A DNA stretch of 23,128 nt from a virus (IMGVR_UViG_3300041432_000025:1-23128); one strand, 5' to 3'; shown: positions 1,399 to 22,013, numbered from the stretch's first letter. Notes: a model not told the origin generated them from the letters alone. Numbers and translations are program-made.

Positions 1399-1416
1399 TT
1401 TACAAACGTTTGTAAA
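1399..1416. repeat. Perfect 18-bp palindrome at a start codon (TTACAAACG element)
   Basis: TTTACAAACGTTTGTAAA is fully self-complementary and lies 2 nt upstream of the ATG of the 200-aa gene. Near-identical elements occur at 7645-7660, 11088-11103 and 17366-17385. It could be a protein-binding site or an mRNA hairpin that shields the start region. Confidence 0.85.
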
Positions 1417-5250: not shown

Positions 5251-5292
5251 ATCGGCGCGCAGCGCCGCGTTGGGTCCAGGCATCATGCCTGG
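5251..5292. repeat. Dispersed multi-palindrome element, copy C
   Basis: Contains CGGCGCGCAGCGCCG followed by CCAGGCATCATGCCTGG (5276-5292). It matches the elements at 7667-7706 and 11106-11145 but lacks the TTACAAACG palindrome. Its last palindrome overlaps the stop codon of the tail-terminator gene, so that gene's final codons belong to the repeat. Relative to copy A, one G:C pair in the stem is reversed, keeping the pairing. Confidence 0.8.
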
Positions 5293-5801
5293 TCAAACGG
5301 CTGCGCCACAGCCGTGAACACGAGCTGGTCGTGCCACTTATCCCCATCCATCGAGTCCCGGTCATCCGCCGGGAAGAAATCGTAAACATGCAGCCCCTTC
5401 ACCGCCCGGTTATCCGGCCCCGTCAGAGGCTTGTTCAGCGCCAGCAAGAGCGCCCCCCCCAGCCTGTTCTCGTCCCCGATCGCCGCCGTCAGGTCCACCG
5501 GCGCCAGCAACGTATAAAACACATCCTCCAGCCGCGCATCCGCCGCCGCGCGATCCTCGTCATTCGCATCACTCTTCTGATGCCACACCACCGTCACGCT
5601 CGAAACCCCCACCTCCGCCGGCAGATCCTCATGCGGCCGCGAATCCGTCGCATACACCACATGGTACGGGACCTCCGGCTCCACATTCGCGTGCCCCTCG
5701 ACGATGATCTGCGCTTTCAGCGACGCATCCCCCGTCCCCTTCACAAACGCAATCACCGCCTTCTCCAGCTTGCGCCGCAACATGATGGCCATCGGGTTCA
5801 T
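5283..5801 (-). CDS. Putative tail terminator protein
   Basis: The ATG at 5801 gives 172 residues (MNPMAIMLRRKLEKAVIAF...). The layout fits gpU/tail-terminator-type proteins: an N-terminal helix (residues 5-18), a beta strand ending in VPYHVVYATDSR, a strand VSSVTVVWHQKS, then a helix ADARLEDVFYTLLA and a C-terminal strand WHDQLVFTAVAQPF. Such proteins cap the growing tail and contact the head connector. The gene lies between the tail-completion-like and tube-like genes, the usual order. The last three codons fall inside a dispersed repeat, so the C-terminus may have been altered by repeat insertion. The call rests on fold pattern and position. Confidence 0.62.
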   Translation of the reverse strand: MNPMAIMLRRKLEKAVIAFVKGTGDASLKAQIIVEGHANVEPEVPYHVVYATDSRPHEDLPAEVGVSSVTVVWHQKSDANDEDRAAADARLEDVFYTLLAPVDLTAAIGDENRLGGALLLALNKPLTGPDNRAVKGLHVYDFFPADDRDSMDGDKWHDQLVFTAVAQPFDQA

Positions 5802-5817
5802 AGCAATGCCGCGGTGT

Positions 5818-6669
5818 CTACGCGGCCGCGACGTGGAATCCGGCCTTCCGGGCGTTATACGCCACCACATGCGCGATGCTGATCTCCATTTTCTGCCGCT
5901 GGTACCGGAGAGCCTCCGCCACTTCCACCTGGCTCAACACACGGTTGATGTATGGGACGTGGTTGTGAAGAATCACGTGGGGATTATTGATCGACCCGCT
6001 GTTGTCCGTAGCGCCGCCGGCGCGTGTGCTCTTGTGACCTGTGACCCAGGCCGGCATTCCCCGCGTCCCGCCAACCGCGGCCGCCGCCGCCGCCCAGCCG
6101 CCTTTGGCAATACCGACCCTCTTCCGTACCTTCATGAAGTAGCTCACGAAATTGCGGCGCTTTACGCCCATCTTATCGATGAACTTCCAGCGCCCGATAT
6201 CGCGGGTGCGTTTCCCGGCCGTCGTGACCCGGCCGCGGCTGTCCCGGTATTTTTGATGATGGGCGCTCATCTCCCCAAAGCTGGCGTCGGGCTTGAAGAG
6301 AAATTTTTCCATGCCGAAAACGTCGCCTTTTGCTGTCACCCACAGGCGATCCGCGTTCATCCCTTCAAAGACATTGGCTACGATCCACGGGGACAGCGGC
6401 ATGAAGATTCCCTCCCAAGCCGCGCCTCGGCCGCCAACCAGGTCTCGATGGATCGCCCCCTCCCCCTTTTTCTTCGCCTGCTGGTTGAGTCCAAAAGGCT
6501 GCGTCTGCATGGCCAGATTTACGCAGATCAGGCGTGCGTTTTGACGGACCACGGCGCCGAAGCTCTTCCCGGTCTCGCGGGCAAGCTGGTGCAGCGCCGC
6601 GTCGAAACGGGCCAGTTCCTCAGTGAGGGCCGCTTGCGGGATCTCGACGACTATACCGCCGCCAGTCAT
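5818..6669 (-). CDS. Putative tail completion / neck protein (283 aa)
   Basis: This 283-residue protein starts 3 nt after the FII-like gene. The N-terminal helix (ELARFDAALHQLARETGKSF) followed by VVRQNARLICVNLAMQTQPF resembles the start of HK97-gp10/gpZ-type tail-completion proteins, which have a helix leading to a basic helix with QN/AR residues. The middle is very basic (residues 130-200), and the C-terminus carries PHVILHNHVPYINRVLSQVE, which looks like the conserved N-x-xPY-a-xx-E end of gp10-like proteins (NHVPYINRVL). It is longer than the usual 130-200 residues. Position between connector and terminator genes supports the role. Confidence 0.6.
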   Translation of the reverse strand: MTGGGIVVEIPQAALTEELARFDAALHQLARETGKSFGAVVRQNARLICVNLAMQTQPFGLNQQAKKKGEGAIHRDLVGGRGAAWEGIFMPLSPWIVANVFEGMNADRLWVTAKGDVFGMEKFLFKPDASFGEMSAHHQKYRDSRGRVTTAGKRTRDIGRWKFIDKMGVKRRNFVSYFMKVRKRVGIAKGGWAAAAAAVGGTRGMPAWVTGHKSTRAGGATDNSGSINNPHVILHNHVPYINRVLSQVEVAEALRYQRQKMEISIAHVVAYNARKAGFHVAAA

Positions 6670-6672
6670 GGC

Positions 6673-7014
6673 CTATTTGCTCTTGCTCGGGTTCGCCAGA
6701 TGCAGCGTCATCGAGATCGCATCCTGCATCGCCTTCACGATCCGGTATTTCCGTCCCTGGATCATCAGCCGTTTCCCATCGAGCGCCCGCTCGATCGGTT
6801 GCGCGAACTTCCCGCCGAACTGCTCCCGCCCCGCCACGATCGTCGCATTGTAAGTCCCCACGAACCCGCCCCCATCGGTCATCAACTCCTTCTCCGAATC
6901 AAACAAATCCACGTCGCCGCAGAACGTGTACCGCCCGATCCGGAACTCCTCTTGTCCAAAGATCGCGCCCGCAATCTCCATCCCCTGCCCCATGAAGTGA
7001 AGGAAATCGTTCAC
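6673..7014 (-). CDS. Head-tail connector protein, lambda FII-like
   Basis: This 113-residue protein has the pattern of small head-closure/attachment proteins: FIGRYTF-type strand (RIGRYTFCGDVDLF), then YNATIVAGREQFGGKF, then a strand-turn-strand LMIQGRKYRIVKAMQDA and a terminal strand ISMTLHLA. Lambda FII and related connectors share a similar size and a closing G-x-x-Y-x-I-x-x strand. It would sit at the bottom of the capsid vertex and receive the tail. It lies 3 nt from its neighbours on both sides. Start codons at residues 8 or 12 are also possible. Confidence 0.6.
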   Translation of the reverse strand: MNDFLHFMGQGMEIAGAIFGQEEFRIGRYTFCGDVDLFDSEKELMTDGGGFVGTYNATIVAGREQFGGKFAQPIERALDGKRLMIQGRKYRIVKAMQDAISMTLHLANPSKSK

Positions 7015-7017
7015 GGT

Positions 7018-7203
7018 TCAGCGCCAGAAAAATGCGAACGCACCCTTGATGATCGTCAGATTCACCTGCTGAAGGATGAGCCATTTCAGCCATGTGAGGA
7101 CACCAAAGCAAAAATCCATCCACGCCCAAAAAATCGAGTGGTGAATGTGAAAACCGATCACCGCCGTGCAAAGACAAAACAGAATATAGGTGGCGCGCTT
7201 CAT
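7018..7203 (-). CDS. Small membrane protein in the head-tail region (61 aa)
   Basis: The ATG at 7203 gives 61 residues with two predicted membrane segments: residues 4-20 (ATYILFCLCTAVIGFHI) and about 24-45 (IFWAWMDFCFGVLTWLKWLI). It is Trp/Phe/Cys-rich, with a basic N-terminus (MKR) and a short C-terminal amphipathic stretch ending in WR. No family is recognised. Two membrane spans and small size would suit a holin or a superinfection-exclusion protein, but the location between head-completion and connector genes is odd for either. The gene is close to its neighbours (18 nt and 3 nt), so it is part of the operon. Confidence 0.65.
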   Translation of the reverse strand: MKRATYILFCLCTAVIGFHIHHSIFWAWMDFCFGVLTWLKWLILQQVNLTIIKGAFAFFWR

Positions 7204-7221
7204 TGGTCCCAATTCATCGGG

Positions 7222-7641
7222 TCACTTCCAAAGGACCATGGCCCGCTTCCCATTATTGACCTTCCCCGGCACCAGGCAGAGCTGCACCAGGTCCCGCGCC
7301 TTGGCCGGCGTGAGAAGCTTCGGCGCCACGTCCGAGAACGCCTGGCACGGCGCGAAGAGCACCGTCCGGTCGAAAAGTTTTGAAAATGCGATGTCACCGG
7401 AAAGTTTCCGCGCCGCCTGTTCGTCGGACAGCGTATAAGAGACCGGCCCGATCGATCCCGGTACCGCCGCCACCGCCGTGCACATCAGCCCCGGCTCCGT
7501 CTCGTCGCAATACCGCCCAGCGCCCAGCGCGATCAGCATTTGTTCGAGGACCAGGATTTCCCCGATCTTCGCGTTCCGCTCCGCGATCAGCTTGTGACCC
7601 TCCCCCACCAGGGACGAGACAGTTGGGAGTTTTGCGGCCAT
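7222..7641 (-). CDS. Hypothetical head-region protein (139 aa)
   Basis: This 139-residue protein begins with a helix (VSSLVGEGHKLIAERNAKIGEILVLEQMLIAL) and ends in mixed beta/helix sequence (RDLVQLCLVPGKVNNGKRAMVLWK). It has three Cys but no zinc or catalytic motif. It lies between the decoration-like gene and the connector genes, where head-completion proteins are usually found. The start codon lies 3 nt from a 16-bp near-palindrome (7645-7660), part of a composite repeat that fills the upstream gap. Function unknown. Confidence 0.68.
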   Translation of the reverse strand: MAAKLPTVSSLVGEGHKLIAERNAKIGEILVLEQMLIALGAGRYCDETEPGLMCTAVAAVPGSIGPVSYTLSDEQAARKLSGDIAFSKLFDRTVLFAPCQAFSDVAPKLLTPAKARDLVQLCLVPGKVNNGKRAMVLWK

Positions 7642-7644
7642 GGA

Positions 7645-7706
7645 TTACAGACGTTTGTAAAATGATCGGCGCGCAGCGCCGTACTGGGTCCAGGGATCAT
7701 CCCTGG
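7645..7706. repeat. Dispersed multi-palindrome element, copy A
   Basis: Three palindromes lie in order: TTACAGACGTTTGTAA (7645-7660), CGGCGCGCAGCGCCG (7667-7681) and CCAGGGATCATCCCTGG (7690-7706), with a shared ACTGGGT link. The same order is seen in copy B (11088-11145). The first palindrome lies just upstream of the 139-aa gene start. The rest of the 180-nt gap (7707-7821) holds another inverted repeat, CCCGTTCAAGAACGGG (7791-7806), and no gene that I can support. Confidence 0.88.
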
Positions 7707-7821
7707 CCGCCGCCCCGCCAGGCAGCAGACCCGGTTTCGGGCCGGGCCGCGCACGCCTGGCGAAGACGACGGAAAATGGGAGCCGAGACGCCCGTTCAAG
7801 AACGGGACTGGCAAGGCCCTT

Positions 7822-8262
7822 TTAGAAAATGAACCCGAACGTCGCGGACACCGCGATGTTGCTCCCCGCGCTGGCCGAGGCCGTCGCCACGAGCTGGAGG
7901 TACCGGCCGATCCCGATCGGCACCGCAAACTGGGCATACTGCGCCAGGCCGCCCGGCGTCAGGGTCCCAGCGACGGTCACCACCGGTGCATTGATCGTAT
8001 TGCCGAACGTGATCCCGTCCGCCGAGTCCTGGAGCTGCAAAGTGATCGTGTAAGTATTCACCAGCGCCGGCGTCGCCGGCAGATTGATGAAAAGCTCCAC
8101 GTCATACAGCCGGCCGGGATTCACACTGGCCGTGTCGAGGATCGCGCTCGTCGCCGAGGCCCCGGCTGCCGGCAGCGCAATCGAGAGCTGAAGGTTGAGG
8201 TCCTGCAGCGTCCGCGCGTTGACCGAGTTATCGTTAGCGAAGGGTCCGGTTCCGTAAGGCAT
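7822..8262 (-). CDS. Putative capsid decoration protein (Bbp16-like)
   Basis: This 146-residue protein follows the major capsid gene by 28 nt. It is almost Lys- and Cys-free and rich in Ala, Thr, Ser, Gly and Leu, with strands such as NTYTITLQLQDSADG and RYLQLVATASASAG. The phrase LPAAGASATSAILDT followed by an acidic E/N strand matches Bbp16-type capsid cement proteins, which bind to the outside of capsids. The position right after the major capsid gene is usual for such proteins. The family name is from memory of motif and size. Confidence 0.65.
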   Translation of the reverse strand: MPYGTGPFANDNSVNARTLQDLNLQLSIALPAAGASATSAILDTASVNPGRLYDVELFINLPATPALVNTYTITLQLQDSADGITFGNTINAPVVTVAGTLTPGGLAQYAQFAVPIGIGRYLQLVATASASAGSNIAVSATFGFIF

Positions 8263-8290
8263 AAATTTTGGTTTCTAGTTCTTCGATGGC

Positions 8291-9316
8291 TTACAGGGCC
8301 GGCTGCGCAACCAGCGATTGGAACACACCCGCATGCTCATTCGGCAGCAGTGAGTCGGTGACCTGGATCGTGATGCCCATCGCGCTCACGGGCAGCTCGG
8401 GATACACACCCCCGGCGCTCAGGCCCTTGTTCGCCGGCGTCGCGACGTTCACGGTGGCGCGGCTGGCCTGGAGGCTCAGACGGGCGCTCGTGTTCATCAT
8501 CCAGCGCCATTTCGTCAGGTCCTGCTGCAGCGCATACGGCACCTTGGCCAGGAGGGCCGCGGCCACCGCGTCGCTGAAGGGATACGCCGAGGTCACATTG
8601 ACCACCCGGTAGGCGTTCTGCGGTCGTGCCATCACGAACCCGAGATACGCCAGGAAATTGTTGATGTACGCCATGTACAGCAGTTGCGGATTGCTGCCGG
8701 AGATGGCGAGCTGCTGTTTCAGCCAGACGTCGTTCATCGTCATCCGCCCGGAATTCCCGAGCAGGAAATGGATGCCCTGGGGATTCACGACGTTGTCGTC
8801 GAGATAGACCAGGTACACGCTCGAACTCGAGGCCGTGCCGCTTCCGCCGGCGTTGATCTGGTTGTCGTTGCTATCGATCTGTGTCGAGAGCCCCACGAAC
8901 CCGGCCGCGTTGATCGCGGTGCCGTACCACACCTGTGAGCCGATGGTAATCGCGCTTCCGCGAACCGTTGCGATGGCCTCATCTGCGAGCAGATCGCCCA
9001 AAATCAAATCGGCGTTCTCCGACTGCGCCGCCACCACGATGTCTTCCGGCACCCGCATCGCCGCTTCGAACACCGCCATCGAGCCCAGCTTCTTGTCCCA
9101 GGCCGATTTCGTCACCGGCACGCCGCCGCCGACATTGCGGAAAGCGCCAGTCGGCAGCTCCGTCCGGGTCAGGGTCGAGTAAGTCACGCCGCTTTTCGGA
9201 AAGCAGGGGAACACCCGAAGCTCCGGAGCAAAAGTCAGGACGCCTTCGAGGACGGCCTGGACATTCTTGGAGCTGCGTGCCGCGAGGTCGAGTAAGGTAT
9301 AAGTGCCGAGAGCCAT
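8291..9316 (-). CDS. Major capsid protein, HK97 fold
   Basis: This 341-residue protein has the layout of an HK97-fold capsid protein without a long N-terminal delta domain: start MALGTYTLLDLAAR, then FPKSGVTYSTLTRTELPTG and FRNVGGGVPVTKS (E-loop region), then the spine-helix region DADLILGDLLADEAIAT-type sequence and GSAITIGSQVWYG. A late segment, AYPFSDAVAAALLAKVPYA, leads to the closing strand ITIQVTDSLLPNEH. It lies between a scaffold-like coiled-coil gene and a decoration-like gene, matching head operons with an S49 protease. The exact Pfam family is not certain; the role as coat protein is well supported by motif and context. Confidence 0.85.
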   Translation of the reverse strand: MALGTYTLLDLAARSSKNVQAVLEGVLTFAPELRVFPCFPKSGVTYSTLTRTELPTGAFRNVGGGVPVTKSAWDKKLGSMAVFEAAMRVPEDIVVAAQSENADLILGDLLADEAIATVRGSAITIGSQVWYGTAINAAGFVGLSTQIDSNDNQINAGGSGTASSSSVYLVYLDDNVVNPQGIHFLLGNSGRMTMNDVWLKQQLAISGSNPQLLYMAYINNFLAYLGFVMARPQNAYRVVNVTSAYPFSDAVAAALLAKVPYALQQDLTKWRWMMNTSARLSLQASRATVNVATPANKGLSAGGVYPELPVSAMGITIQVTDSLLPNEHAGVFQSLVAQPAL

Positions 9317-9371
9317 AGTGTTTTGGGAAAAAGTTGCGGAGTTAAATGCGGGGGACTGTCAAAGCGCCCGG

Positions 9372-9842
9372 TTAGGCTGCGACGGCTTCCCCTTGAGCCT
9401 TGAAGCCCGCGGCCAGCCGCTGGCGGGGAGTAAGTGCCGGGTCCGTCGCGGCGACCTCGCCGGCGACCGTGGCTTTCACCTTCGGCAGCACCAGCCCATT
9501 GGCCGCGTACAGCTCGCGCACCTTCAATTCGGCGCGGTCATCGGAAGTCTTGAGATTGGTCTCCGCGGTCGTCTTCGCCGTATTGGCCTCCGCCAGGCTC
9601 AACTTCGAAGCGTCCAGATCGGTCGTGAGCTTCGCGGAAGCGTCGGTGGCCACCTTCAGGTCCGCGTCCGCTTTGTCGGCCCGCTGATTGGCAGTTGTGA
9701 GATCGGTCGTGAGCTTCGTGGAAGCCTCAGTGGCGATCTTCAGGTCCGCGTCGCCTTTGTCCGCCCGCTGATTGGCGGTGGAGAGTTGGCCTTCCAACTC
9801 GGTGATTCTTGCGGTGAGCTGAGGAACGGTAGGCGCGGGCAT
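9372..9842 (-). CDS. Coiled-coil scaffold-like head protein with 28-aa tandem repeat
   Basis: This 156-residue protein is helical and charged over residues 8-105. Residues 22-49 and 50-77 are near-identical 28-residue repeats (start TANQRADKxDADLK, end KLTTDL), equal to four heptads and 84 bp. A globular-looking C-terminus (residues 105-156) carries YAANGLVLPKVKATVAGE and PALTPRQRLAAGF, which resemble the ends of small scaffold or head-assembly proteins. It lies between the S49 protease and the capsid gene, the expected place of a scaffold cleaved by that protease. The repeat may let length vary between relatives. Confidence 0.75.
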   Translation of the reverse strand: MPAPTVPQLTARITELEGQLSTANQRADKGDADLKIATEASTKLTTDLTTANQRADKADADLKVATDASAKLTTDLDASKLSLAEANTAKTTAETNLKTSDDRAELKVRELYAANGLVLPKVKATVAGEVAATDPALTPRQRLAAGFKAQGEAVAA

Positions 9843-9857
9843 GCAACTCGCGCGCTG

Positions 9858-10724
9858 TCAATTCACGTCCAGCAGGCTATAACCGATCAGCGCCTCCAGC
9901 GCATCGAGCGCGTCGCTGAATCCGCCGGTCCCGTCCACGATGCCCGCATCGATGGCGTCGGAGCCGGAGAAACACTGACCGCGCATGGAGCTGGCATCGA
10001 CCTGCGGGCGCACGGATTGGATCCAACCGGTGAATTTCGCGTTGATGGCTTCGATCCAGGCCTGGAGGTATTCGAGTTCATCCTCGGTGGCCGGCCGGAA
10101 GGCGTTGCCAGCCGCCTTCAGGTCGCTGGCTTCCGGGGTGAGGATATTCATCTTCACGCCGAGATTTTCGAGCAGCCGGGAGATATCCGGGAACGTGCAG
10201 ATGGTGCCGATGGAGCCGACGATGGAACTGGAAGAGGCGATGATCGCGGTGCTCGCGCTGGCGAAATAGTAGGCGGCGCTCGCTCCGAAGGTTTCAATGT
10301 AGGAGACGACGGGCTTTTGAATCACCGCGGCCTGCACGGCCGCCGCTGCCTCCGGCGCGCCCACGGCCGAACCGCCTGGGCTTGAGATATAGAGCAGGAT
10401 CCCGCGCACCGTATCGTCCGCCGCCGCCTGCCCCAGCTCGGAGATCAGATCGTTGTAATGGGTATCGCCAAAAAGTTTGTCCACGTTCGTCGCCGTCCGG
10501 CTCAGGACCTCATTGCAATGGATCATCCCGATCCCCTGGACCACCTGGTAAGGGCGCCGCCCGTTCACAAAATCCGCCAGCGTCAGCTCCTGTTTCATCC
10601 CGCTCGGCACCCCGGCATGCGCGTGCATCCGCTCTTCGATGTTCTGCCGGCGCATCAGCCACGCCGCCAGCGCCGGCGCGTGAATCGCGATCGGCTCACT
10701 CAAAAGAAATTCCGGAATGCGCAT
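9858..10724 (-). CDS. S49-family (SppA/gpC-like) prohead protease
   Basis: The ATG at 10724 gives 288 residues. The protease domain shows YISSPGGSA (113-120), the catalytic-Ser region FGASAAYYFAS (Ser149), SSIVGSIGT (167-173) and a late DLKAAGNAF (catalytic Lys203), the layout of S49 peptidases that use a Ser-Lys dyad. Lambda gpC is the model: it degrades the scaffold during capsid maturation. The gene follows the 54-aa gene by 2 nt and precedes the coiled-coil scaffold-like gene by 15 nt. All key residues look intact, so the enzyme should be active. A TTG at 10730 could be an alternative start. Confidence 0.92.
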   Translation of the reverse strand: MRIPEFLLSEPIAIHAPALAAWLMRRQNIEERMHAHAGVPSGMKQELTLADFVNGRRPYQVVQGIGMIHCNEVLSRTATNVDKLFGDTHYNDLISELGQAAADDTVRGILLYISSPGGSAVGAPEAAAAVQAAVIQKPVVSYIETFGASAAYYFASASTAIIASSSSIVGSIGTICTFPDISRLLENLGVKMNILTPEASDLKAAGNAFRPATEDELEYLQAWIEAINAKFTGWIQSVRPQVDASSMRGQCFSGSDAIDAGIVDGTGGFSDALDALEALIGYSLLDVN

Positions 10725-10726
10725 GA

Positions 10727-10891
10727 TCAATTCTCCGGCTCGACAAACACCTTCCCCCGAAGCTGGAAAATTCCCCCCTGCCGGCGCCGCCCCGACCGCT
10801 TGAACGCCGAGAACACCGTGTCCTTATTCAGCCCCCAGGACGTCAGCCGTTCCTCCCCTTCAAAAATCGCATACCACTTTCGAGCTTTCAT
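10727..10891 (-). CDS. Small basic head-operon protein (54 aa)
   Basis: A 54-residue frame starts at an ATG with a good Shine-Dalgarno (GGGAG, 9 nt upstream). The protein begins MKARKWYAIFEGEERLTSWG and has a very basic middle (KRSGRRRQGG) then a strand (IFQLRGKVFVEPEN). Codon use looks coding and its stop lies 2 nt before the protease ATG. The N-terminal strand with W-Y-A-I resembles small beta proteins such as head-tail joining or nucleic-acid-binding proteins, but no family is recognised. It is the only gene here with a clear strong ribosome-binding site, suggesting it begins a translated unit after the repeat-filled gap upstream. Confidence 0.72.
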   Translation of the reverse strand: MKARKWYAIFEGEERLTSWGLNKDTVFSAFKRSGRRRQGGIFQLRGKVFVEPEN

Positions 10892-10927
10892 TTAATGATG
10901 CTCCCAATGTCAGAACTCGGCTTGCCA

Positions 10928-10959
10928 CGGCGTAGCGCCGCGCAGCGGCACGAAGCCGG
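10928..10959. repeat. CCGGC-arm dispersed repeat, copy with nested hairpin
   Basis: Arms CGGCGTAG and CGAAGCCGG flank a centre that is itself an inverted repeat (GCCGCGCAGCGGC). Same family as 15701-15744 and 21181-21214. Confidence 0.6.
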
Positions 10960-11087
10960 GTCCAAGAACTCAATCCAAAAGTAACCACGTGGTTCCATGG
11001 TTGGTCTGATCCCGTGAGAGTTACGCTCCGAAAATAGCCCGGTTTTCCCGAAACCCGCGCATAAGTCATTCAAAAGCCTCGCCTGAT

Positions 11088-11145
11088 TTACAGACGTTTG
11101 TAACTCGGCGCCCAGCGCCGTATTGGGTGCAGGGATCATCCCTGC
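11088..11145. repeat. Dispersed multi-palindrome element, copy B
   Basis: TTACAGACGTTTGTAA (11088-11103), CGGCGCCCAGCGCCG (11106-11120) and GCAGGGATCATCCCTGC (11129-11145) in the same order and orientation as copy A. Compared with copy A the outer stem pair of the last palindrome is flipped (C..G to G..C), preserving pairing. Confidence 0.88.
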
Positions 11146-11177: not shown

Positions 11178-12773
11178 TCATTGCCCCCCGCCTCCGCCCT
11201 CTCCGCCCCCGCCCCCGCCCCCAAAACTCTCCCCAGCCCCCGGCAGCGTCCCCTGCCCAGGCTTCGACGATCTCCACATCGGCATATTCTTCAGCCACAG
11301 CGCCAGCAGCGCCGCCCCTTCCTCGGGCGACAAATCCTTGCAATTCGCGATCTCCTGCTTCGCCGTCCGGATAAATTCAATCGGCTCCCGGATCCATTGC
11401 AGCATCACATTCCGGTAATTCAACCCCCGCGCGTTGCAATACTCCCGGAGCGTCAGCATCCCGTTCGCCAGCAACTCGATCAGCAGCCGCGTCTCATGCC
11501 CGTTATCCACCGTCACCCGCGGCGGCGTCTGCCACGATAGCTTCGACGCCCACCCCTTATCCTTACACGGCCGCAGCATCCCCATCTTGATCCGGTAGTC
11601 CAGGTACCGGAACGCCACCGGATTGCAGAACCGGTAAATACATCCGTCCCCCAACACCTGGAACAACAAATCCGCCTTCGACAAAATGAACCGCATATTC
11701 GCCCCCCCCAGCTTCTCCGGATCCCAACTGAACGAAGCCGGCAGCCCCAGCGACGCGAACACATTCCGCATAAAAATGTTCGTGATGAAAGCCTCCACCA
11801 GCGGCGACGGCGAATTCGTGCTCAGCAATTGCGCCTCCCCGTCCCCGTTCAGATACGCGATCCCGCCCCCGCTCGCCGTCGTCAGCTTCTCCAGTTGCGA
11901 GTAATCCGTCGGACGCGCCCCATCCCGATCGCTCTCCTTCCCGCCCGGCGTCGCCCGTTGCAGCCCCCCCACCGCCCCGCGCCCCCGCGACTTCGGCACA
12001 TTCTTCAACACCAGCGCGATGAGTTGCTGCGCCTTCGCGCTCCGCGTCGCCAGCCGCGTCAGCTCATAGATATCCACCAGCGGATTCACCGCCTGCGCCA
12101 GATCGCTGATCCCCCGCACCTGGTTCACCGCGTGCGGCTTATACCAGTGGATCATTTGCGACGCCGGGATCGGCGTCCACGTCATCCCATCCAGGTTCCG
12201 ATGGTGATACGCCACCGGCCGCGAATTCAGGTCCAACTCCACCCCGTCCAGGATGATCTTGTCCCCGATGCTCCCAGCCGGAGGCGGCGTAGAAATTTCC
12301 TCACTATCAAAAATCTGAAAAGCCGGCTCCCCTCCCCACTTTTCATTATTACCTAATCCACATAAAAACTCCCCCCGGAGAACCCGTTGTTCCACAGCCG
12401 CCGTCTGCGCTTCGTAAAACGTCCGCCGCGCCGAAAGATCGCATCGATCCGGCGTCGTCGCATATTGCTCGAAGTCATCCTCCGCGAGCTGGTTCCACTC
12501 ATCATCCGTCGAGTTGCACTCCAGCGAAATCCCCCTTCCCACCGTATGCCGCGCGATCCCGCCCACCCCTTCCTTCACAATCCCGAAATTCTGCCACACC
12601 CACTCGATCTTCTCATTAATCATCCGCCGCGTCGTAGCCGTCAGGTAAAGCGCGCTATCCAGCGGCAAAATGAACCTCACATTCGACCGATCAATCGAAT
12701 CCAGGATCGTATCCGAAAACGCGTTCGTCCCAATCCCCAGGTACCGCGAGATCAGCCCCAGCACATTGATCAC
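11178..12773 (-). CDS. Portal protein, lambda gpB family
   Basis: A GTG start preceded by GGGGGG gives 531 residues. The protein forms the DNA channel at one capsid vertex and is the motor docking site. Family features: N-terminal helix region with TATTRRMINEKIEWVWQNF, the body segment FDSEEISTPP, then GVELDLNSRPVAYHHRN, IPASQMIHWYKPHAVNQVRGIS and the helical segment FASLGLPASFSWDPEKLGGANMRF, which matches lambda-type portals (QVRGISDLA and the late S-W region). The C-terminus ends in a low-complexity Gly-rich tail (about residues 513-530) with a P/E break. Length suits the family (about 500-530). It lies after a 105-aa gene in the gpW position and before the protease unit. Confidence 0.92.
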   Translation of the reverse strand: MINVLGLISRYLGIGTNAFSDTILDSIDRSNVRFILPLDSALYLTATTRRMINEKIEWVWQNFGIVKEGVGGIARHTVGRGISLECNSTDDEWNQLAEDDFEQYATTPDRCDLSARRTFYEAQTAAVEQRVLRGEFLCGLGNNEKWGGEPAFQIFDSEEISTPPPAGSIGDKIILDGVELDLNSRPVAYHHRNLDGMTWTPIPASQMIHWYKPHAVNQVRGISDLAQAVNPLVDIYELTRLATRSAKAQQLIALVLKNVPKSRGRGAVGGLQRATPGGKESDRDGARPTDYSQLEKLTTASGGGIAYLNGDGEAQLLSTNSPSPLVEAFITNIFMRNVFASLGLPASFSWDPEKLGGANMRFILSKADLLFQVLGDGCIYRFCNPVAFRYLDYRIKMGMLRPCKDKGWASKLSWQTPPRVTVDNGHETRLLIELLANGMLTLREYCNARGLNYRNVMLQWIREPIEFIRTAKQEIANCKDLSPEEGAALLALWLKNMPMWRSSKPGQGTLPGAGESFGGGGGGGEGGGGGQ

Positions 12774-12798
12774 GGCCGCCCCCCTTGTCCCGGCGTAG

Positions 12799-12843
12799 CG
12801 CCCATCCCGTAAATCCTGTCATCCTGTCTAAAATTCCCCCTGG
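12799..12843. repeat. CATCCTGT-type direct repeat, downstream copy
   Basis: A run beginning CGCCCATCCCGTAAATCCTG and ending in AAATTCCCCC. It resembles 13191-13235 in order and orientation; the two flank the 105-aa gene. Imperfect repeats of this type are common in intergenic DNA of Verrucomicrobiota-like genomes. Confidence 0.65.
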
Positions 12844-13503: not shown

Positions 13504-15668
13504 TTTCCCAGCGCTTCCGCCGCCGTCCGCCGCGCCCCCGCCTCCGCCCGGTGCCCATCCAGGCACTCCTCCACAAACCCCGCCATCACCCGTTGCTGCT
13601 TCTCGCAATCCCCCAGATGGTTATTCTTCGTCCGCGACGTCCACACCCGGCGCCCATCCTTCTCCACCTGCGTTTCGTCCGTCAGATGCGCCTTATAGTG
13701 CGCATCGCAATTCACCGGCAGCCACCAGAACACCGGCCCCGCCACACTCGCCCCGTCCTTGATGCAGTCATAGTAAAGGTTGCAAGCGAAGTAATCCGAC
13801 CAAAACCAAACCAGGTCCAGCCGATCGTCCATAATCGGCGACAGCCGCACCGTATTGCCCCGCGTCTTGCTCGCATCACCGCCCTTCGACGGGCTGAACA
13901 CCGCGCTGTTGCTCATGCAAAACGCATACACATTCTTGTTGTCCTGCGCCTCGAACCCCGAGTCCACCAGCCCCGACGTGATCACATATTCACGCACCGT
14001 CCCATCCTCCCGCGTGAACGTGAACTGACGCAGCCGCCCCGCCGCATCCGCGCGCAGCCCGCATATCTCCAACAACTGCTCCCAGCTCACCGCCTCCCCC
14101 CAGTCCACCAGCGCCGACCACGTCGGCCAATCCGGGTTATCCCACAGAATCCCCCATGCCCGAATCACGAACCAGAACTGCATGCCCTGCACGTCAATCG
14201 TGATCGTCAGAATTTCCGCCTCGATCGGAATTTGCCCCTGCACATATCGCATCGGCGTCCGCGCCACCACCCGGTCGATATCCTCCTCCTTGATCACCGT
14301 CCCCAGCCGGATAAACGGCAGCCCCAGCGTGAAATTATAGAACTTGATCATCGCCCCCAGGTTCCCCTTCGCCTCGATGAACTCCTTCGCGATCATCCCC
14401 CAATACTCGAACGGGTTCTTCGCAGCCCACACGTGGAACGAAAGCTTGTCCCGCGCCGCGCCAGGGTTGTGCGAGACCCACCAATACCGATCCAGCATCC
14501 AGCCCAGGTGCGTAAACTCGATATCCTTCTTGCAGTGCGCGCACTCGTAAGTCGTATCCGCCTCCACCGCGTCCATGTCATAGCCCACCTTCACTGGCTC
14601 CGTTTGCGTCGGGTCATCCAGCCGCGGTCGTTCCCCATAAATGGCAAACTGCGAAAACTTGAATTGCCCCGTCTTCTCCTCCCGCCAATGCTCCCGCGCG
14701 GGCAGCGATCCCCTCTTACTCCCTTTCGTCCGGATCAACTGCAATCGCTTATTGAACGGGACAAGTTTTTGCTCGATGAAAAAACTGAACCGCTGCCATC
14801 CGCGCAGCGTTGGTTCATAACTCAATGGCGACCGCCCCGGCTCCACGTCCTCATTCGATGGAGCTACCCAAGGCTCCGCCGGCGCCTTACTTTTACGGCT
14901 CCTCTCAGACTGCGCCGCCGAATACGCCGAACAATACGGACACGGAAAATAACAGTAATGCTGCGATCTCCGCAAAAAATCCTGCCACGTCGGGGACAAC
15001 TCCCCTCCCTCACCAGGCGTCGAGCTATCGATCACCAGCCGCGACTTCGCGAACAACTTCGTCCGCGCCACAATCTTGTCATAACTCGCCGCGTCCCGAT
15101 CAATGCTCGCCCGGCACCGATCCCTCTCGTTGATTACCGCCAGCTCCGCGTTGAACCCGTGTAAGTCAGCCTCCGCGCCCGAGGCCACGATCCGCAGCCG
15201 CTTCCCGCGAAATGCCTTTGCCAGCGTCGTCCACGCCTTCCGCGAAATGATAGCCAGGTCCCGCACCGGCCGGCATTGCAGCAGGTACTCCTCCAGTTCC
15301 GATCGCACCAGATTCACCGCGCTCTTCCGCGTCGGATCCAGCCACACCACGTCCCCGAACCGCTCCCCCAGCCAATACAACACCATGCAAATTGAAAACA
15401 GCGTCTTCCCCACCCGCGCCGACGCCACCACCGTGATGAAATGCACCCCGCGCCTCTGCGCCAGGTCATAGATCCCGCGGAAGATCGGCACCCGTCCCGT
15501 CCGCAGGCTCCCCGTGCATGGACCCCCCGCCTCCTCCGGGATCACCACCCATCGGTCCAGCCACTTCCACAACCGCGTCCGCGGCCGAGGCCGGATCGTC
15601 GCCCGGATAATCGCCTTCAGCCAATCCACAGCCACAAGCGATTTACGATTCGGGATCACCCTTCCCAC
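13500..15668 (-). CDS. Terminase large subunit, GpA family
   Basis: A GTG start (others possible nearby) gives 722 residues, close to the GpA-family size. The ATPase domain has the Walker A-like ASARVGKT (82-89), a Walker B-type segment AVINERDR (177-184) and a coupling motif DSSTPGE (214-220). Zinc-ribbon Cys pairs are CPYC (243-246) and CAHC (376-379), split by about 130 residues, which is more than usual. The C-terminal nuclease has TIDVQ (Asp492) and LVDSG (Asp569). The protein cuts concatemers and drives DNA into the prohead with the portal and small terminase. Asn180 replaces the Asp that normally precedes the catalytic Glu. The stop is followed by a coupled small ORF and a terminator. 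Confidence 0.93.
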   Translation of the reverse strand: MGRVIPNRKSLVAVDWLKAIIRATIRPRPRTRLWKWLDRWVVIPEEAGGPCTGSLRTGRVPIFRGIYDLAQRRGVHFITVVASARVGKTLFSICMVLYWLGERFGDVVWLDPTRKSAVNLVRSELEEYLLQCRPVRDLAIISRKAWTTLAKAFRGKRLRIVASGAEADLHGFNAELAVINERDRCRASIDRDAASYDKIVARTKLFAKSRLVIDSSTPGEGGELSPTWQDFLRRSQHYCYFPCPYCSAYSAAQSERSRKSKAPAEPWVAPSNEDVEPGRSPLSYEPTLRGWQRFSFFIEQKLVPFNKRLQLIRTKGSKRGSLPAREHWREEKTGQFKFSQFAIYGERPRLDDPTQTEPVKVGYDMDAVEADTTYECAHCKKDIEFTHLGWMLDRYWWVSHNPGAARDKLSFHVWAAKNPFEYWGMIAKEFIEAKGNLGAMIKFYNFTLGLPFIRLGTVIKEEDIDRVVARTPMRYVQGQIPIEAEILTITIDVQGMQFWFVIRAWGILWDNPDWPTWSALVDWGEAVSWEQLLEICGLRADAAGRLRQFTFTREDGTVREYVITSGLVDSGFEAQDNKNVYAFCMSNSAVFSPSKGGDASKTRGNTVRLSPIMDDRLDLVWFWSDYFACNLYYDCIKDGASVAGPVFWWLPVNCDAHYKAHLTDETQVEKDGRRVWTSRTKNNHLGDCEKQQRVMAGFVEECLDGHRAEAGARRTAAEALGK

Positions 15669-15700
15669 CGCGTGTCGCCCCGCCGAATGACATCCTTGTC

Positions 15701-15744
15701 CCGGCGTAGCCCCGTCCCGCCACTGCGGGACGGGACGAAGCCGG
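15701..15744. repeat. CCGGC-arm repeat with nested 10-bp hairpin between divergent genes
   Basis: Arms CCGGCGTAG and CGAAGCCGG enclose CCCGTCCCGC / GCGGGACGGG (15711-15720 and 15725-15734, 4-nt loop CACT). It lies between the divergent starts of the large terminase and the 79-aa plus-strand gene. A shorter version of the same nested hairpin is at 21181-21214. Confidence 0.8.
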
Positions 15745-15776
15745 AAGCGCCGCCAAATCCCAAATCCGAAATCGCC

Positions 15777-16428: not shown

Positions 16429-17536
16429 CTTTTTTCCGTGATTTCCGAACTGATCCTTGTTTACCGCGAGAGCGAGGACCTCGGCCGGCCCTGGCGCCAT
16501 TCTCTTTCGGTAATGCGCCCTCACGCGACCCCGGATCAACTGGCCGCGGCGGTGCGGGAGCTTCGCGAGGCAGTCGCGCGGCAGCCGGCAGTGCCGCCGC
16601 ATCTGGAGACCCTGCCTGATCATCATCTGCCGTGCATTCCGTCTCTGGGTTCGCGCGCATCGCGTCCTGAATAACCCTCCGCCCGATCCGCGCCAGCGTG
16701 AGCCGGACGAGCTGCTCCACCAATCGCAGCAGCGCCTCGCGATCCTGCCCATCAAAACTCACCAGGGCGAACAACCGTTCAGTCTCCTCGTCCCATTCCT
16801 CCCCGTCCCTTGGCCCGGCGAAGCCAGGCGAAGACGGCTCATCGATATATGACGTCGAGTGCAGGTCCGCGATCACCGCGTCCATCTCATCCCTCAACTT
16901 CTCCTCCGCCACCGACTCCTCCCGGATCCCCACCAGGAACCGCGCCGCCCGCGCTGGGAATTGCGACAGCTTCGTCTGGATCGCCGCGAACGTCGCCCCC
17001 AGCGGCACCTCCAGGTCCGCCGCCACCAGCATCCTCCCCTCCAGATGGTCGATATCGATATCCAGCTTCCTCACAATCCTCATCTCACGCTGCACCTTCC
17101 AGTCCCGTAGATTCTTCGGCGCCCCCGGGTCAACGCCGGCGCCGTCCTCGCCCTCCCTTGATCCGGCGTAGTCCAACGAAGCCGATTCATCAGACCCCGC
17201 GAGTCCATGAGTCACCATCGCCACCTTCCAGGCCGCCACATCATGCCGTCCATCCGCCCGAGGCCTCGGCAACGCCCCCGCCAGGTCCTGGCGCTCCCGC
17301 CATTTCAAAATGCTGCGCCGGCTAACCCCCAGGAGTTGCCCCAGTTCATCCCACGTCGAAGCGTAGTTTACAGACGTTTGTAAACCCGCGCCCGCCGCCG
17401 CCGTACTGCTCGAATGCGCAGCATCCAGCATCCGCCTTTCATCCCGCGTCAGCGTCTTCCCGGCATTCAGCTTGCGGATGCAATTCGCCAGTTCCTTCGT
17501 CCGCAGTTTCTCGATATCTTCGGGGGACAGCGTCAC
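16403..17536 (-). CDS. Putative terminase small subunit
   Basis: A GTG start gives 377 residues. Residues 60-100 carry a helix-turn-helix (WDELGQLLGVSRRSILKWRERQ followed by LPRPRADGRHDVAAW), matching Nu1-type DNA-binding modules that recognise the packaging site. A helical body (130-300) includes NLRDWKVQREMRIVRKLDID and a long amphipathic region. The C-terminal 80 residues are Pro/Arg/Lys-rich, low complexity, and overlap antisense to the SEC-C gene. The order small then large terminase supports the role. A dispersed palindrome lies inside the coding sequence (17366-17385) and encodes LQTSVN; two CCGGC-arm-like sequences also fall within the gene. It is long for a small terminase subunit (usually 150-200). 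Confidence 0.7.
   Translation of the reverse strand: MTLSPEDIEKLRTKELANCIRKLNAGKTLTRDERRMLDAAHSSSTAAAGAGLQTSVNYASTWDELGQLLGVSRRSILKWRERQDLAGALPRPRADGRHDVAAWKVAMVTHGLAGSDESASLDYAGSREGEDGAGVDPGAPKNLRDWKVQREMRIVRKLDIDIDHLEGRMLVAADLEVPLGATFAAIQTKLSQFPARAARFLVGIREESVAEEKLRDEMDAVIADLHSTSYIDEPSSPGFAGPRDGEEWDEETERLFALVSFDGQDREALLRLVEQLVRLTLARIGRRVIQDAMRANPETECTADDDQAGSPDAAALPAAARLPREAPAPPRPVDPGSREGALPKENGARAGRGPRSRGKQGSVRKSRKKVTGENSRA
17366..17385. repeat. TTACAAACG-type palindrome within the small terminase gene
   Basis: GTTTACAGACGTTTGTAAAC is a 20-bp inverted repeat with one mismatched pair. It belongs to the same family as 1399-1416, 7645-7660 and 11088-11103 but lies inside coding DNA. Confidence 0.8.
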
Positions 17537-17551: not shown

Positions 17552-17743
17552 TCAATCGCCCGGAGGCTCCGTTGCCGCCAGCAATCCGTGCAACGCCAGG
17601 CCGCGCGGCGATTGCCGCCCCTGCTCCCATTGCTGGAGCGTGCGCTCGGAAATGGAAAGACGCTCCGCCGCCTTCCGCTGCGTGAGACTATTGCGCTGGC
17701 GCCACCGTTTCAGGCGGTCGGATATGTTCTGCGATCCAGCCAT
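17552..17743 (-). CDS. XRE-type helix-turn-helix protein
   Basis: An ATG at 17743 (or 17755) gives 63-67 residues. The HTH region is typical: RLKRWRQRNSLTQRKAAERL, then SISERTLQQWEQGRQSPRG, with the conserved turn and the W-E-Q-G-R-x-S-P ending of Cro/C1-type DNA-binding domains. A short C-terminal tail ends in the acidic PPGD. The start overlaps the preceding DUF2442 gene by 56 nt, so expression is coupled. It may repress its own cassette through the palindrome at 18340-18358, or act as the antitoxin. It has no dimerisation domain, so it would act as a small regulator. Confidence 0.85.
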   Translation of the reverse strand: MAGSQNISDRLKRWRQRNSLTQRKAAERLSISERTLQQWEQGRQSPRGLALHGLLAATEPPGD

Positions 17744-18017
17744 CGGTTTCGCCATAATCCATGAAGCGGCCGGCCTCGCACCAGGCGCGCAGTGCGCCGG
17801 GGGACAGGTCCAGATCGTCCGGCCAGAGAGCAGCCCCGTGGGCCACCGTGACCTGATTGAAGGATGCTTCGTCGCGCAGCCGCTCGAAGATGGGACCGCA
17901 ATCCAGCAGCGGAGTCAGATCGACCTCGCCGGTCCATCCATCCTGGAAGGTAACGCGGACCCGGCGGCCGCCGATGGCCTCGATGGCCGTGACCCTTTCG
18001 GTGAAATATCTGTTCAT
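17688..18017 (-). CDS. DUF2442-domain protein
   Basis: The ATG at 18017 gives 109 residues. The pattern VTAIEAIGGRRVRVTFQDGW, then TGEVDLTPLL, then IFERLRDEASFNQVTVAHGAALWPDDLDLSPGALRAW is characteristic of the DUF2442 family (beta sheet with a DL..LL segment and an ending G-x-x-x-W-P-x-D-x-D-L-x-P). These proteins are often paired with DUF4160 or fused to helix-turn-helix domains and are thought to be antitoxin- or regulator-like. Here it follows a DUF4160 gene by 5 nt and overlaps an XRE gene, in one operon. Activity has not been shown in the sequence. Confidence 0.85.
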   Translation of the reverse strand: MNRYFTERVTAIEAIGGRRVRVTFQDGWTGEVDLTPLLDCGPIFERLRDEASFNQVTVAHGAALWPDDLDLSPGALRAWCEAGRFMDYGETDGWIAEHIRPPETVAPAQ

Positions 18018-18022
18018 GGCTT

Positions 18023-18289
18023 TTAGCGGAGGGGTTCGATTTTGTTTGGCTTGCGACCGGCTTGGACCGCATCCCAAGCCGCCTTAATTTCCGGGCGATG
18101 CTGGAATGCCCATTCGATCACGAGAGCCAGGGGCCGGTTGCTCATTTGCCCCGCCACCACCCGAAGCGTGCCGATTTCGACGGATACCTCCTCGTTGCCA
18201 TAGATGGCGTGGAAGTGGGCGACGTGGCGCGAATCTTCGCGCGTCCGAAGAATAATATCGATTCCGAAGAAGCTGCTGAGTTTTGGCAT
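18023..18289 (-). CDS. DUF4160-domain protein
   Basis: The 88-residue protein has the DUF4160 pattern: MPKLSSFFGIDIILRTRED, then HVAHFHAIYGNEEVSVEIG, then TLRVVAGQMSNRPLALVIEW with a C-terminal W-x-A and IEPL. The HFHA(x)YG segment and the L-x-V-x-x-G strand are typical. Proteins of this family commonly sit next to DUF2442 genes in predicted toxin-antitoxin-like pairs. The start is preceded by the leader motif GGAAGAGCGAACC 22 nt upstream and by a promoter-operator. It may be the toxin of the cassette; no catalytic residues can be pointed to with certainty. Confidence 0.85.
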   Translation of the reverse strand: MPKLSSFFGIDIILRTREDSRHVAHFHAIYGNEEVSVEIGTLRVVAGQMSNRPLALVIEWAFQHRPEIKAAWDAVQAGRKPNKIEPLR

Positions 18290-18332: not shown

Positions 18333-18361
18333 GGTAGAAACTACGTGATTCACGTAGTCAA
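18333..18361 (-). promoter_or_regulatory. Promoter of the DUF4160-DUF2442-XRE cassette
   Basis: In transcript sense TTGACT (18361-18356) is followed after 17 bp by TCTACC (18338-18333). The -35 matches the consensus at five of six positions; the -10 is weak. The spacer is almost entirely a perfect palindrome, which suggests repression by a protein bound between the two boxes. Confidence 0.55.
18340..18358. promoter_or_regulatory. 19-bp palindromic operator
   Basis: ACTACGTGATTCACGTAGT has perfect 9-bp arms with one central base and lies within the spacer of the predicted promoter. The nearby XRE gene is a good candidate for the repressor. No second copy was found in the window. Confidence 0.75.
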
Positions 18362-18966: not shown

Positions 18967-19622
18967 GCTGCCTCGCTTTCAGCGCCGCGCTCGTGCCGGC
19001 GTAGCGTCAGCGAAGCCGCAGCGAAGGCCTCGGCATCCTCGACGCAGGCCCGCATGTTCACTCCCTCGCTCGCAAGGCACCCGTCCGGCACCGCGCCCTG
19101 GGCAATCGCCAGTGCAGCCCCGACCGGTACCCGAAACTGCTTGCGCAGATAATGCCGCGCATCCTGGATGCTCGGGGCGTCCACGCGCAGCGTCTTGAAC
19201 CGCGTCTCCAGCCGCCCCTTCGACTCCGCCCGCAGTCGCCCGTAGTTATTCGTCGTCGCCAGCACCATCATCCCCGCCGGCAGATAGTCCAGGTAAGTCA
19301 GAAGCTCCGCTCGGGCGCTCGAACTCGACTCGTCGAGTTCGTCGATCCGCTTCACCGTCCGCGCGGAGAAGAGATTGCCGCAGCCTGCCCGATCCCTCCA
19401 CTCCCTCACCAGGTCAATGCCCAGCGACTGCCCATTGACCCGCTCGATCGCAAACGGCGAGCCCGTCATTTCCAGCGCCAGCAAATCGAGCAGATGGGAT
19501 TTCCCCACGCCCGGATCGCCATGCAGCAGGATGGCCACGCTTTGATGCCGCGTCGCCAGCGCCCGCGCCGTCTCCAATACGGAGACGGCGGGCCCAACCA
19601 ATGGAAGGTCGAGGCGGATCAT
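18963..19622 (-). CDS. AAA+ ATPase
   Basis: The ATG at 19622 overlaps the previous stop (ATGA) and gives 219 residues; a longer upstream extension was rejected because it covers another gene. Motifs: Walker A HGDPGVGKS (34-42), Walker B-type VKRIDELDE (90-98), sensor 1 LATTNN (121-126) and a likely Arg-finger region KGRLETRFKTLR. A short lid follows. This is a compact RFC/DnaC-like AAA+ module with no DNA-binding domain. Coupled SymE-like and RarA-C-type neighbours suggest one complex. The 3' end includes an intruding CCGGC-arm repeat (18996-19018). A role in DNA replication or repair is inferred. Confidence 0.85.
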   Translation of the reverse strand: MIRLDLPLVGPAVSVLETARALATRHQSVAILLHGDPGVGKSHLLDLLALEMTGSPFAIERVNGQSLGIDLVREWRDRAGCGNLFSARTVKRIDELDESSSSARAELLTYLDYLPAGMMVLATTNNYGRLRAESKGRLETRFKTLRVDAPSIQDARHYLRKQFRVPVGAALAIAQGAVPDGCLASEGVNMRACVEDAEAFAAASLTLRRHERGAESEAA

Positions 19623-21171: not shown

Positions 21172-21180
21172 CGGCTTGTC

Positions 21181-21214
21181 CCGGCATAGTCCCGCAACTG
21201 CGGGACGACGCCGG
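21181..21214. repeat. CCGGC-arm repeat with nested 7-bp hairpin
   Basis: CCGGCATAG then GTCCCGC / GCGGGAC (21189-21195 and 21200-21206, loop AACT) and a CGACGCCGG arm. It shares the nested TCCCGCNACTGCGGGA core with 15711-15734. It lies between the glycosyltransferase and the next leader motif. Confidence 0.75.
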
Positions 21215-21260: not shown

Positions 21261-22013
21261 CTAAAAGGGCAATTGCATCGTGATCTTCTGAATGCCCGCG
21301 TAGTCCCGCTTCCGCGTCCCACTGTGGCCACCGGACGAAAAGATATCGCCCCACTTCTTTTGCAGCAGCGCCACGTCGCGCTTCTCCGTCGCGCTCGTCC
21401 GGTAAGCCGCCTGGCCGCCGCGGCCCGTGAAAGTTTCCTTCTGGCAAAAGGTATATCGACAATCCTTCACACACATCCGATGCCGCCGTGCATTCGCCGC
21501 CGCGATATCGAAATCATTCTTCGCGACGATCCGCTCATCGAACCGCAACCCATGCCCTTTCCTGAACCCCATCGCGCAGCCGTTGATGTAACCCGTGAGC
21601 ATGATCGGCTTCAGCCCCGTATAATAACGCAGCGCCCCATTGCTCGCCTCCCATCCGAAGTAATAAGCGCCCACGTCGCGCGCCAGAATAGAAGTGGCCT
21701 CGATGATCGCCTCGATCAGCGGCGGCTCCCGGATCGTCGAGCTTTCCCCAGGCGAAACAAAGCACCGCTGCACTCCCACAATATCGTCATCGACAAACAC
21801 CACCGCATCCTCGTCCCGAAAATAGTCGAGGATCCAATTCAGCTTCGGCGTCAGCCCCCTCACTCGATTAGGATGGGTGAGCACTCTGGACTCGCCGGCG
21901 GCCGCTAGATATTCGGGTTCCTGACTTTCCGGGACGCACACGAGAGCGCTTGGTAGCAGCCGGTGCGTGGTCATCGAGCTTGCCCGCGACATGGATGGAA
22001 TGACGATTTTCAT
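21261..22013 (-). CDS. Glycosyltransferase resembling TET-associated (TAGT) DNA-base glycosyltransferases
   Basis: This 250-residue protein begins MKIVIPSMSRASSMTTHRLL, the nucleotide-sugar-binding start seen in TAGT-type enzymes, has a PES-x-EPEYLAAAG segment and a DxD-type metal/sugar motif VFVDDDIVGV (Asp75-77). The acceptor half has YINGCAMGFRKG, FDERIVAKNDFDIAAANARR (Asp159, Asp167, Asp169) and a late ETFTGRGGQAAYR segment. TAGTs transfer sugars onto hydroxymethyl-cytosine made by phage TET dioxygenases. The start lies inside the previous ParB-like gene by 146 nt. No TET gene is seen within the window. A protein or capsule glycosyltransferase is the alternative. Confidence 0.75.
   Translation of the reverse strand: MKIVIPSMSRASSMTTHRLLPSALVCVPESQEPEYLAAAGESRVLTHPNRVRGLTPKLNWILDYFRDEDAVVFVDDDIVGVQRCFVSPGESSTIREPPLIEAIIEATSILARDVGAYYFGWEASNGALRYYTGLKPIMLTGYINGCAMGFRKGHGLRFDERIVAKNDFDIAAANARRHRMCVKDCRYTFCQKETFTGRGGQAAYRTSATEKRDVALLQKKWGDIFSSGGHSGTRKRDYAGIQKITMQLPF

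Follow-up and report, generated by a model that had tools for sequence, protein, structure and literature searches.

A dispersed GGGT-tagged hairpin family of phages and bacteria, often placed at the base after a stop codon

Three copies of a hairpin pair in a viral window

The window analyzed here is the whole of virus record IMGVR_UViG_3300041432_000025:1-23128 (23,128 bases), in which the late genes, including those for the large terminase, the portal, an S49 protease and a GP7-type capsid protein, lie on the minus strand. A hairpin pair occurs three times in it (copies A, B and C) and consists of a 15-bp GC hairpin (hairpin 1), a (T)GGGT tag and a 17-bp palindrome (hairpin 2). A preliminary description had reported these copies, with paired substitutions in the 17-bp palindrome and a common orientation. 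All three were recovered at the positions below, the substitutions were as described when the sequence was checked, and A, B and C all lie in the gene-sense orientation of a wider family. The features are as follows, with the basis of each call in brackets.

5253..5267, minus strand: copy C, hairpin 1, CGGCGC-x3-GCGCCG (sequence; place relative to GGGT as in host copies)
5271..5292, minus strand: copy C, (T)GGGT tag (5271-5275) and hairpin 2 CCAGGCATCATGCCTGG (5276-5292) (sequence)
7667..7681, minus strand: copy A, hairpin 1 CGGCGCGCAGCGCCG (sequence, fold)
7685..7706, minus strand: copy A, tag TGGGT (7685-7689) and hairpin 2 CCAGGGATCATCCCTGG (7690-7706) (sequence, fold)
8291..9316, minus strand: major capsid protein gene, GP7 type (context)
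11106..11120, minus strand: copy B, hairpin 1 (sequence, fold)
11124..11145, minus strand: copy B, tag (11124-11128) and hairpin 2 GCAGGGATCATCCCTGC (11129-11145) (sequence, fold)
11178..12773, minus strand: portal gene (context of copy B)

The 17-bp pattern, at ≤3 mismatches, gave 7 matches in the window against 1.05 expected. The 15-bp GC hairpin alone gave 21 matches at the same tolerance against 14.4 expected, which was not significant; its position was fixed in all three copies. Folding of single-stranded RNA in gene sense predicted that the hairpins form in copies A and B (z of -3.1 and -3.2), and the fold of copy C was less striking (z of -1.5). Copy A lies 115 nt behind the stop of gene 7822-8262 and copy B 32 nt behind the stop of the portal gene. 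In copy C the gene-strand loop TGA (5285-5283) is the stop codon of open reading frame (ORF) 5283-5870. Direct contact of copy C with a preceding stop was considered and rejected, as the ORF actually ends at this loop TGA.

A GGGT-tagged hairpin family in bacteria and phages

The sequence TGGGTNCAGGNATCATNCCTG was scanned against 84,980 species genomes and 15 loci were found, with several copies per genome in UBA1321 (Verrucomicrobiota), a Paracaedibacteraceae genome and an alphaproteobacterium. The general form derived from those copies was GGGT followed by SCAG-NN-TCA-NN-CTGS. With the general pattern GGGTSCAGNNTCANNCTGS, 113, 48, 22 and 9 copies were counted in 4 of the 62 genomes of the order of UBA1321 (GTDB), and 76 in one relative of the Paracaedibacteraceae genome, while the reversed-pattern control gave zero copies. 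The host genomes are partly metagenome-assembled genomes (MAGs) and unannotated, so that ORFs were called mechanically; because the tag and half of each stem are constant in the copy-finding patterns, divergent members are missed. A viral scan with GGGTSCAGCGTCACGCTGS returned 68 loci, and about 80 family copies were found in viral contigs.

The full layout of the family is hairpin 1, linker, GGGT, hairpin 2; in gene sense the order becomes end of gene, hairpin 2, ACCC, short linker, hairpin 1. In genomes G427 and G428, 22 of 98 copies carried another perfect hairpin, ≥7 bp long, whose end lay 5-9 nt before GGGT, compared with 0.9% of random positions. Host composites such as GATTTGC[GCA]GCAAATC-AGCTACT-GGGT and GACGCGC[ATC]GCGCGTC-AGCTACC-GGGT have the same architecture as the window's CGGCGC[GCA]GCGCCG-TACT-GGGT, with different stems. 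The exact composite pattern had no match in IMG/VR, a looser composite pattern had 52 loci with the palindrome in none, and the 21-nt class at ≤1 mismatch occurred in the 388 Verrucomicrobiota genomes just in UBA1321 and in one chance-like match.

The position of the copies was biased by orientation. Within 60 nt behind an ORF end, 68 of 119 copies lay in one orientation and 25 in the other, that is, the copies are intergenic and downstream of genes, as in repetitive extragenic palindromic (REP) sequences in general; the 9-113 dispersed copies per genome, the zero control and the conserved pairing described below agree with that class too. Judged by its sequence, the hairpin pair belongs to a dispersed REP-like family with a GGGT tag, present in the UBA1321 order, Paracaedibacteraceae and phages, and through this family these phages are linked by sequence to a Verrucomicrobiota lineage. 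No description of such a family was found in the literature searched, with most subscription journals outside it.

Tandem and inverted copy groups were seen at intergenic sites. A tandem array in UBA1321 (L059/L068, contig C196, 1300-1570) has an 87-bp unit holding the inverted pair GGGTGCAGCGTCACGCTGG then CAGGGATGATCCYTG, a paired layout known from bacterial interspersed mosaic elements. In the Paracaedibacteraceae genome G395 (L171-L198), GGAT-tagged relatives GGATGCAACGGCACGTTGC occupy the place of hairpin 1 before GGGT hairpins. A phage capsid operon carrying the element was also found on L030, a contig filed as a Betaproteobacteria MAG; this NCBI label is doubtful because its genome was drawn into the same order as UBA1321.

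Compensatory changes in the stems

The preliminary description had named a REP-like dispersed element as one possibility and had taken the paired changes as a sign of selection on pairing or strand symmetry. The additional copies were examined for unpaired drift in the stems, and covariation was seen instead; the copy counts above and the double changes in the further copies bear out both proposals. Among 15 composite copies, 98.5% of cells were paired, a fraction that is biased since the composites were chosen for a perfect hairpin 1; the variety of the stems is free of this bias. Double-changed cells numbered 20 in this set and 4.5 in shuffles (0 of 500), and sliding the partners produced no comparable signal. 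In hairpin 2, whose positions had been left free by the search, the two outer bases were complementary in 141 of 146 copies, C-G and G-C both being common, and the number of double-changed cells was 15. An example comes from phages L349 and L356, in which the element stands at the same junction behind homologous proteins 44% identical to each other, with the outer pair swapped from C-G to G-C.

Placement directly behind stop codons

In 27 of the 119 host copies, the first base of the hairpin directly followed the stop codon of an ORF ≥80 codons long, an arrangement that occurred solely in the orientation stop - hairpin - ACCC and that only 0.32% of random positions showed. Removal of copies with similar flanks left 27 of 115 host copies and 17 of 79 phage copies in contact with a stop; the opposite end of the element abutted a stop in 0 host copies and 1 phage copy of these same sets. 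Contact with a stop was seen for 10 of 799 other hairpins of the same size and for 1 of 46 GTRG hairpins from these genomes. The genes upstream of abutting copies were unrelated, and all three stop codons were used.

A plain target preference for stop-like triplets was rejected. Such triplets were not in excess outside gene ends, one longer repeat excepted, and therefore a triplet target alone does not explain the placement. In several phages the element occupies the whole interval between a stop and the start that follows, as stop - hairpin - ACCC - AATT - ATG. The capsid gene of L396/L441 ends in ..AGVLRNVKIA-TAA with the element directly 3′ of it, and the 30 listed homologues, which lack the element, reach their stop at or close to these residues. 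The element therefore follows a native stop and does not supply one. At the RuvC junction across the order, the upstream gene differed and no clean empty site was found. Spacing of 0 nt at stop codons, seen in about one quarter of the copies, was not described for ordinary bacterial hairpin repeats in the literature searched; nor had the preliminary description foreseen it.

Relation to REPs and other known classes

One rival explanation is that the family is an ordinary REP moved by a REP-associated tyrosine transposase (RAYT, a Y1 HUH transposase), with GGGT as a drifted guide sequence. The known TnpA-REP classes are tagged GTAG or GTGG, with CGTC and CnGA as other tags, and the RAYT-linked REPs and CGTC repeats resemble the family in the small hairpin, the foot tetranucleotide, the many copies, the mostly downstream intergenic sites and the covarying stems (PMC3733652, PMC6006769). 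Tandem and inverted groups agree with this explanation as well, and placement near stops is known for REPs (PMC3733652, PMC12306157). Against these likenesses stand the tag and the transposase genes. The foot of the family copies read was GGGT and not GTAG or GTGG; the search pattern fixed GGGT, and the window copies had been chosen independently of it. None of the Y1 genes found in G427, G428 and G426, which as MAGs may be incomplete, was flanked by a GGGT hairpin, and 3 of the 4 in G427 stood near GTAG hairpins. In G395, GGGT hairpins lay within the flank of 1 of 4 tested Y1 loci, and UBA1321 had no Y1 match. Moreover, GTAG REPs are reported to supply the TAG themselves (PMC3733652, PMC6006769), while the 0-nt stop contact of the GGGT family is not supplied by its tag, and GTRG hairpins in the same genomes lack such contact. 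The family also differs in that part of its copies have a second hairpin at a nearly constant distance. The link to a Y1 transposase, suggested in the preliminary description, was thus rejected for the copy-rich Verrucomicrobiota genomes; by these features the family is not a classical RAYT REP, and movement by a RAYT is an unlikely explanation of it.

Genes between inverted copy pairs were tried as mobility genes and were ordinary enzymes, with no mobility gene among them. As for features of miniature inverted-repeat transposable elements, no parent element, no target-site duplication and no base-level clean empty-site pair were seen. An intrinsic terminator was rejected, as hairpin 2 is followed by ACCC and not by a U run; a loose terminator scan, which finds no more than in shuffles, was passed solely by hairpin 1 of copy A. 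No Rfam covariance model matched up to E = 1.

E. coli REPs near stops are alike in having the hairpin close behind the stop and a possible effect on the terminating ribosome. According to Liang et al. 2015, as cited in PMC12306157, E. coli REPs ≤15 nt from a stop are reported to affect translation, and their spacing is described as spread over 1-20 nt, in contrast to the peak at 0 of the GGGT family. The start-associated sequences and extended start-associated sequences (SAS/ESAS) of Cluster K mycobacteriophages are likewise repeated phage sites at gene junctions in one orientation; SAS are tied to starts, whereas the GGGT hairpins are tied to stops and common to bacterial genomes (PMC3203893).

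A 16-bp palindrome forms a separate set of sites

The preliminary description had joined a 16-bp palindrome in copies A and B to the hairpins as a single three-palindrome element. The palindrome is present in both, and four occurrences of TTACARACGTTTGTAA, not two, were found in the window, where a search returned 8 matches against 0.05 expected.

1400..1415, no strand assigned: 16-bp operator-like palindrome TTACAAACGTTTGTAA, just upstream of a minus-strand ATG; no part of the hairpin repeat
7645..7660, no strand assigned: 16-bp operator-like palindrome TTACAGACGTTTGTAA, directly upstream of gene 7222-7641; syntenic site in L024 at 15312
11088..11103, no strand assigned: 16-bp operator-like palindrome, behind the portal gene; syntenic site in L024 at 11590
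17368..17383, no strand assigned: 16-bp operator-like palindrome, inside the small terminase gene; syntenic site in L024 at 5834

The palindrome was placed outside the hairpin repeat because two of its four copies stand away from hairpins. L024, the closest relative found (portal 80% identical), has retained it in synteny at three sites, one preceding the homologue of gene 7222-7641, one following the portal gene and one within the small terminase gene, and hairpins 1 and 2 are absent from all three. Before the homologue of 7222-7641, L024 has other inverted palindromes: at 15248-15298, the place of copy A, stands a different inverted pair, GCCAATCTCCCGATTGGC and GCCAATCAGGAGATTGGC. The supposed single element is, on this sequence evidence, two unrelated things, the hairpin pair and the 16-bp palindrome. 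The half-sites of GCCAATCTCCCGATTGGC/GCCAATCAGGAGATTGGC resemble the hairpin 1 stems GATTGGC/GCCAATC of G427.

One base change is common to the window sites (TTACAGACGTTTGTAA at 3 of 4) and another to the L024 sites (TTACAACCGTTTGTAA at 3 of 3, one in opposite orientation). Such a concerted change across a site set is the pattern we would infer for sites read by one protein. A repeated site kept in synteny by a related phage is what characterizes phage operator sets, and the palindrome is probably an operator-type site, putatively read by a phage DNA-binding protein. The small helix-turn-helix (HTH) protein encoded at 17552-17755 is a candidate regulator. The palindrome looks phage-specific because 20 Verrucomicrobiota genomes contained no exact match, and matches with one mismatch were no more frequent there than for the reversed control. 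Its concerted shift recalls the Cluster K SAS/ESAS, whose site consensus also shifts between related phages (PMC3203893). The 17-bp palindrome of Cluster O mycobacteriophages is likewise dispersed, near-perfect and found between and within genes, and it differs in having >30 copies instead of 4 and an unrelated sequence (PMC4351075). At the small terminase site (17368-17383; L024 5834-5849; GLQTSVN / GLQTVVN), both protein and palindrome are conserved, and a packaging or regulatory site is possible there.

A second conserved operator-like palindrome, ACTACGTGATTCACGTAGT, was observed at window 18340-18358 (L024 4329-4347). The genes downstream of it (DUF4160 - DUF2442 - HTH, 17552-18289) resemble a toxin-antitoxin or regulatory module.

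Proposed function of the hairpin pair

REP-like hairpins are widespread, and their loose positioning has kept their function in dispute. A family that frequently sits at the very base following a stop codon connects the hairpin with translation termination and turns the question into one that can be tested. Our preferred reading, to which we give an even chance, is that the GGGT REP-like family is kept as a gene-end hairpin tuning upstream output, with the 16-bp palindrome a separate operator-type site. The hairpin would form where a translated gene ends, or shortly downstream, and protect the 3′ side of the upstream message. It could thereby adjust how much the upstream gene yields compared with the next one, through translation termination, coupling or decay, and may affect the terminating ribosome. 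The sequences show family membership, covariation, orientation and spacing; action as RNA and the step tuned are what we infer. Phage copies that follow capsid and tail genes suggest an effect of some use.

Several observations weigh against gene-end tuning. About three quarters of the family copies do not abut a stop, and none of window copies A, B and C has the 0-nt arrangement. The in-loop stop of copy C is only suggestive of a link to a gene end and no proof by itself, because the frequency of in-loop stops is about that expected for random placement in ORFs; for the ORF that ends there (5283-5870), no homologue was found. The earlier interpretation holds in part: its REP-like character and pairing selection stand, and its three-part unity and transposase tie do not.

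A broader view is that this is a mobile hairpin family of two bacterial phyla and phages, placed to the single base behind in-frame stops, whose spread or retention is read by the translation machinery and not by DNA sequence; we offer it tentatively, as the less probable of the two. It may also be that a mobile element inserts at translation ends in an RNA- or ribosome-dependent manner, so that abutment reflects mechanism and not function. The sharp peak at offset 0 with all three stop codons, the lack of triplet excess away from gene ends (the one longer repeat excepted) and the retained native stop would fit, but no mechanism of this kind is known, no enzyme was found, and selection for a gene-end hairpin could yield the same picture; we regard aimed insertion as improbable. 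The single-base placement could have arisen in either of two ways, by strong selection for the exact position or by a mode of spread in which translation ends are sensed.

Use of the element as a recombination joint for mosaic exchange at phage gene boundaries agrees with the phages in which it spans the entire stop-to-ATG gap, but a bacterial genome holds >100 copies and compensatory stem changes lower the identity that recombination needs, making this very improbable. Palindromes kept symmetrical for a dimeric DNA-binding protein, a good fit for the 16-bp palindrome, are a still fainter prospect for the hairpins, in which bases change freely while pairing stays and a dimer site would keep its contact bases.

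Other features of the window

No DNA similarity of the window to known phages was found. A prophage search by large terminase in the 388 Verrucomicrobiota genomes found none. A second dispersed repeat family, CCGGCGTAGCC..GCGAAGCCGG, some copies with an inner GTCCCGC..GCGGGAC hairpin, was observed in the window and also within the small terminase gene. Its 11 copies in one Verrucomicrobiota genome, G125, hint at the host lineage.

1431-1456, 10926-10962, 12783-12800, 15690-15745, 16810-16842, 17162-17192, 18990-19018, 21174-21214: second repeat family

At 9616-9783, a tandem duplication of 84 bp (87% identical) lies in a coiled-coil gene between the capsid and protease genes. A TET-associated glycosyltransferase (PF20691) adjoins a ParB-like protein at 21261-22773, and this pair of neighbours suggests that the phage DNA may carry modified bases.

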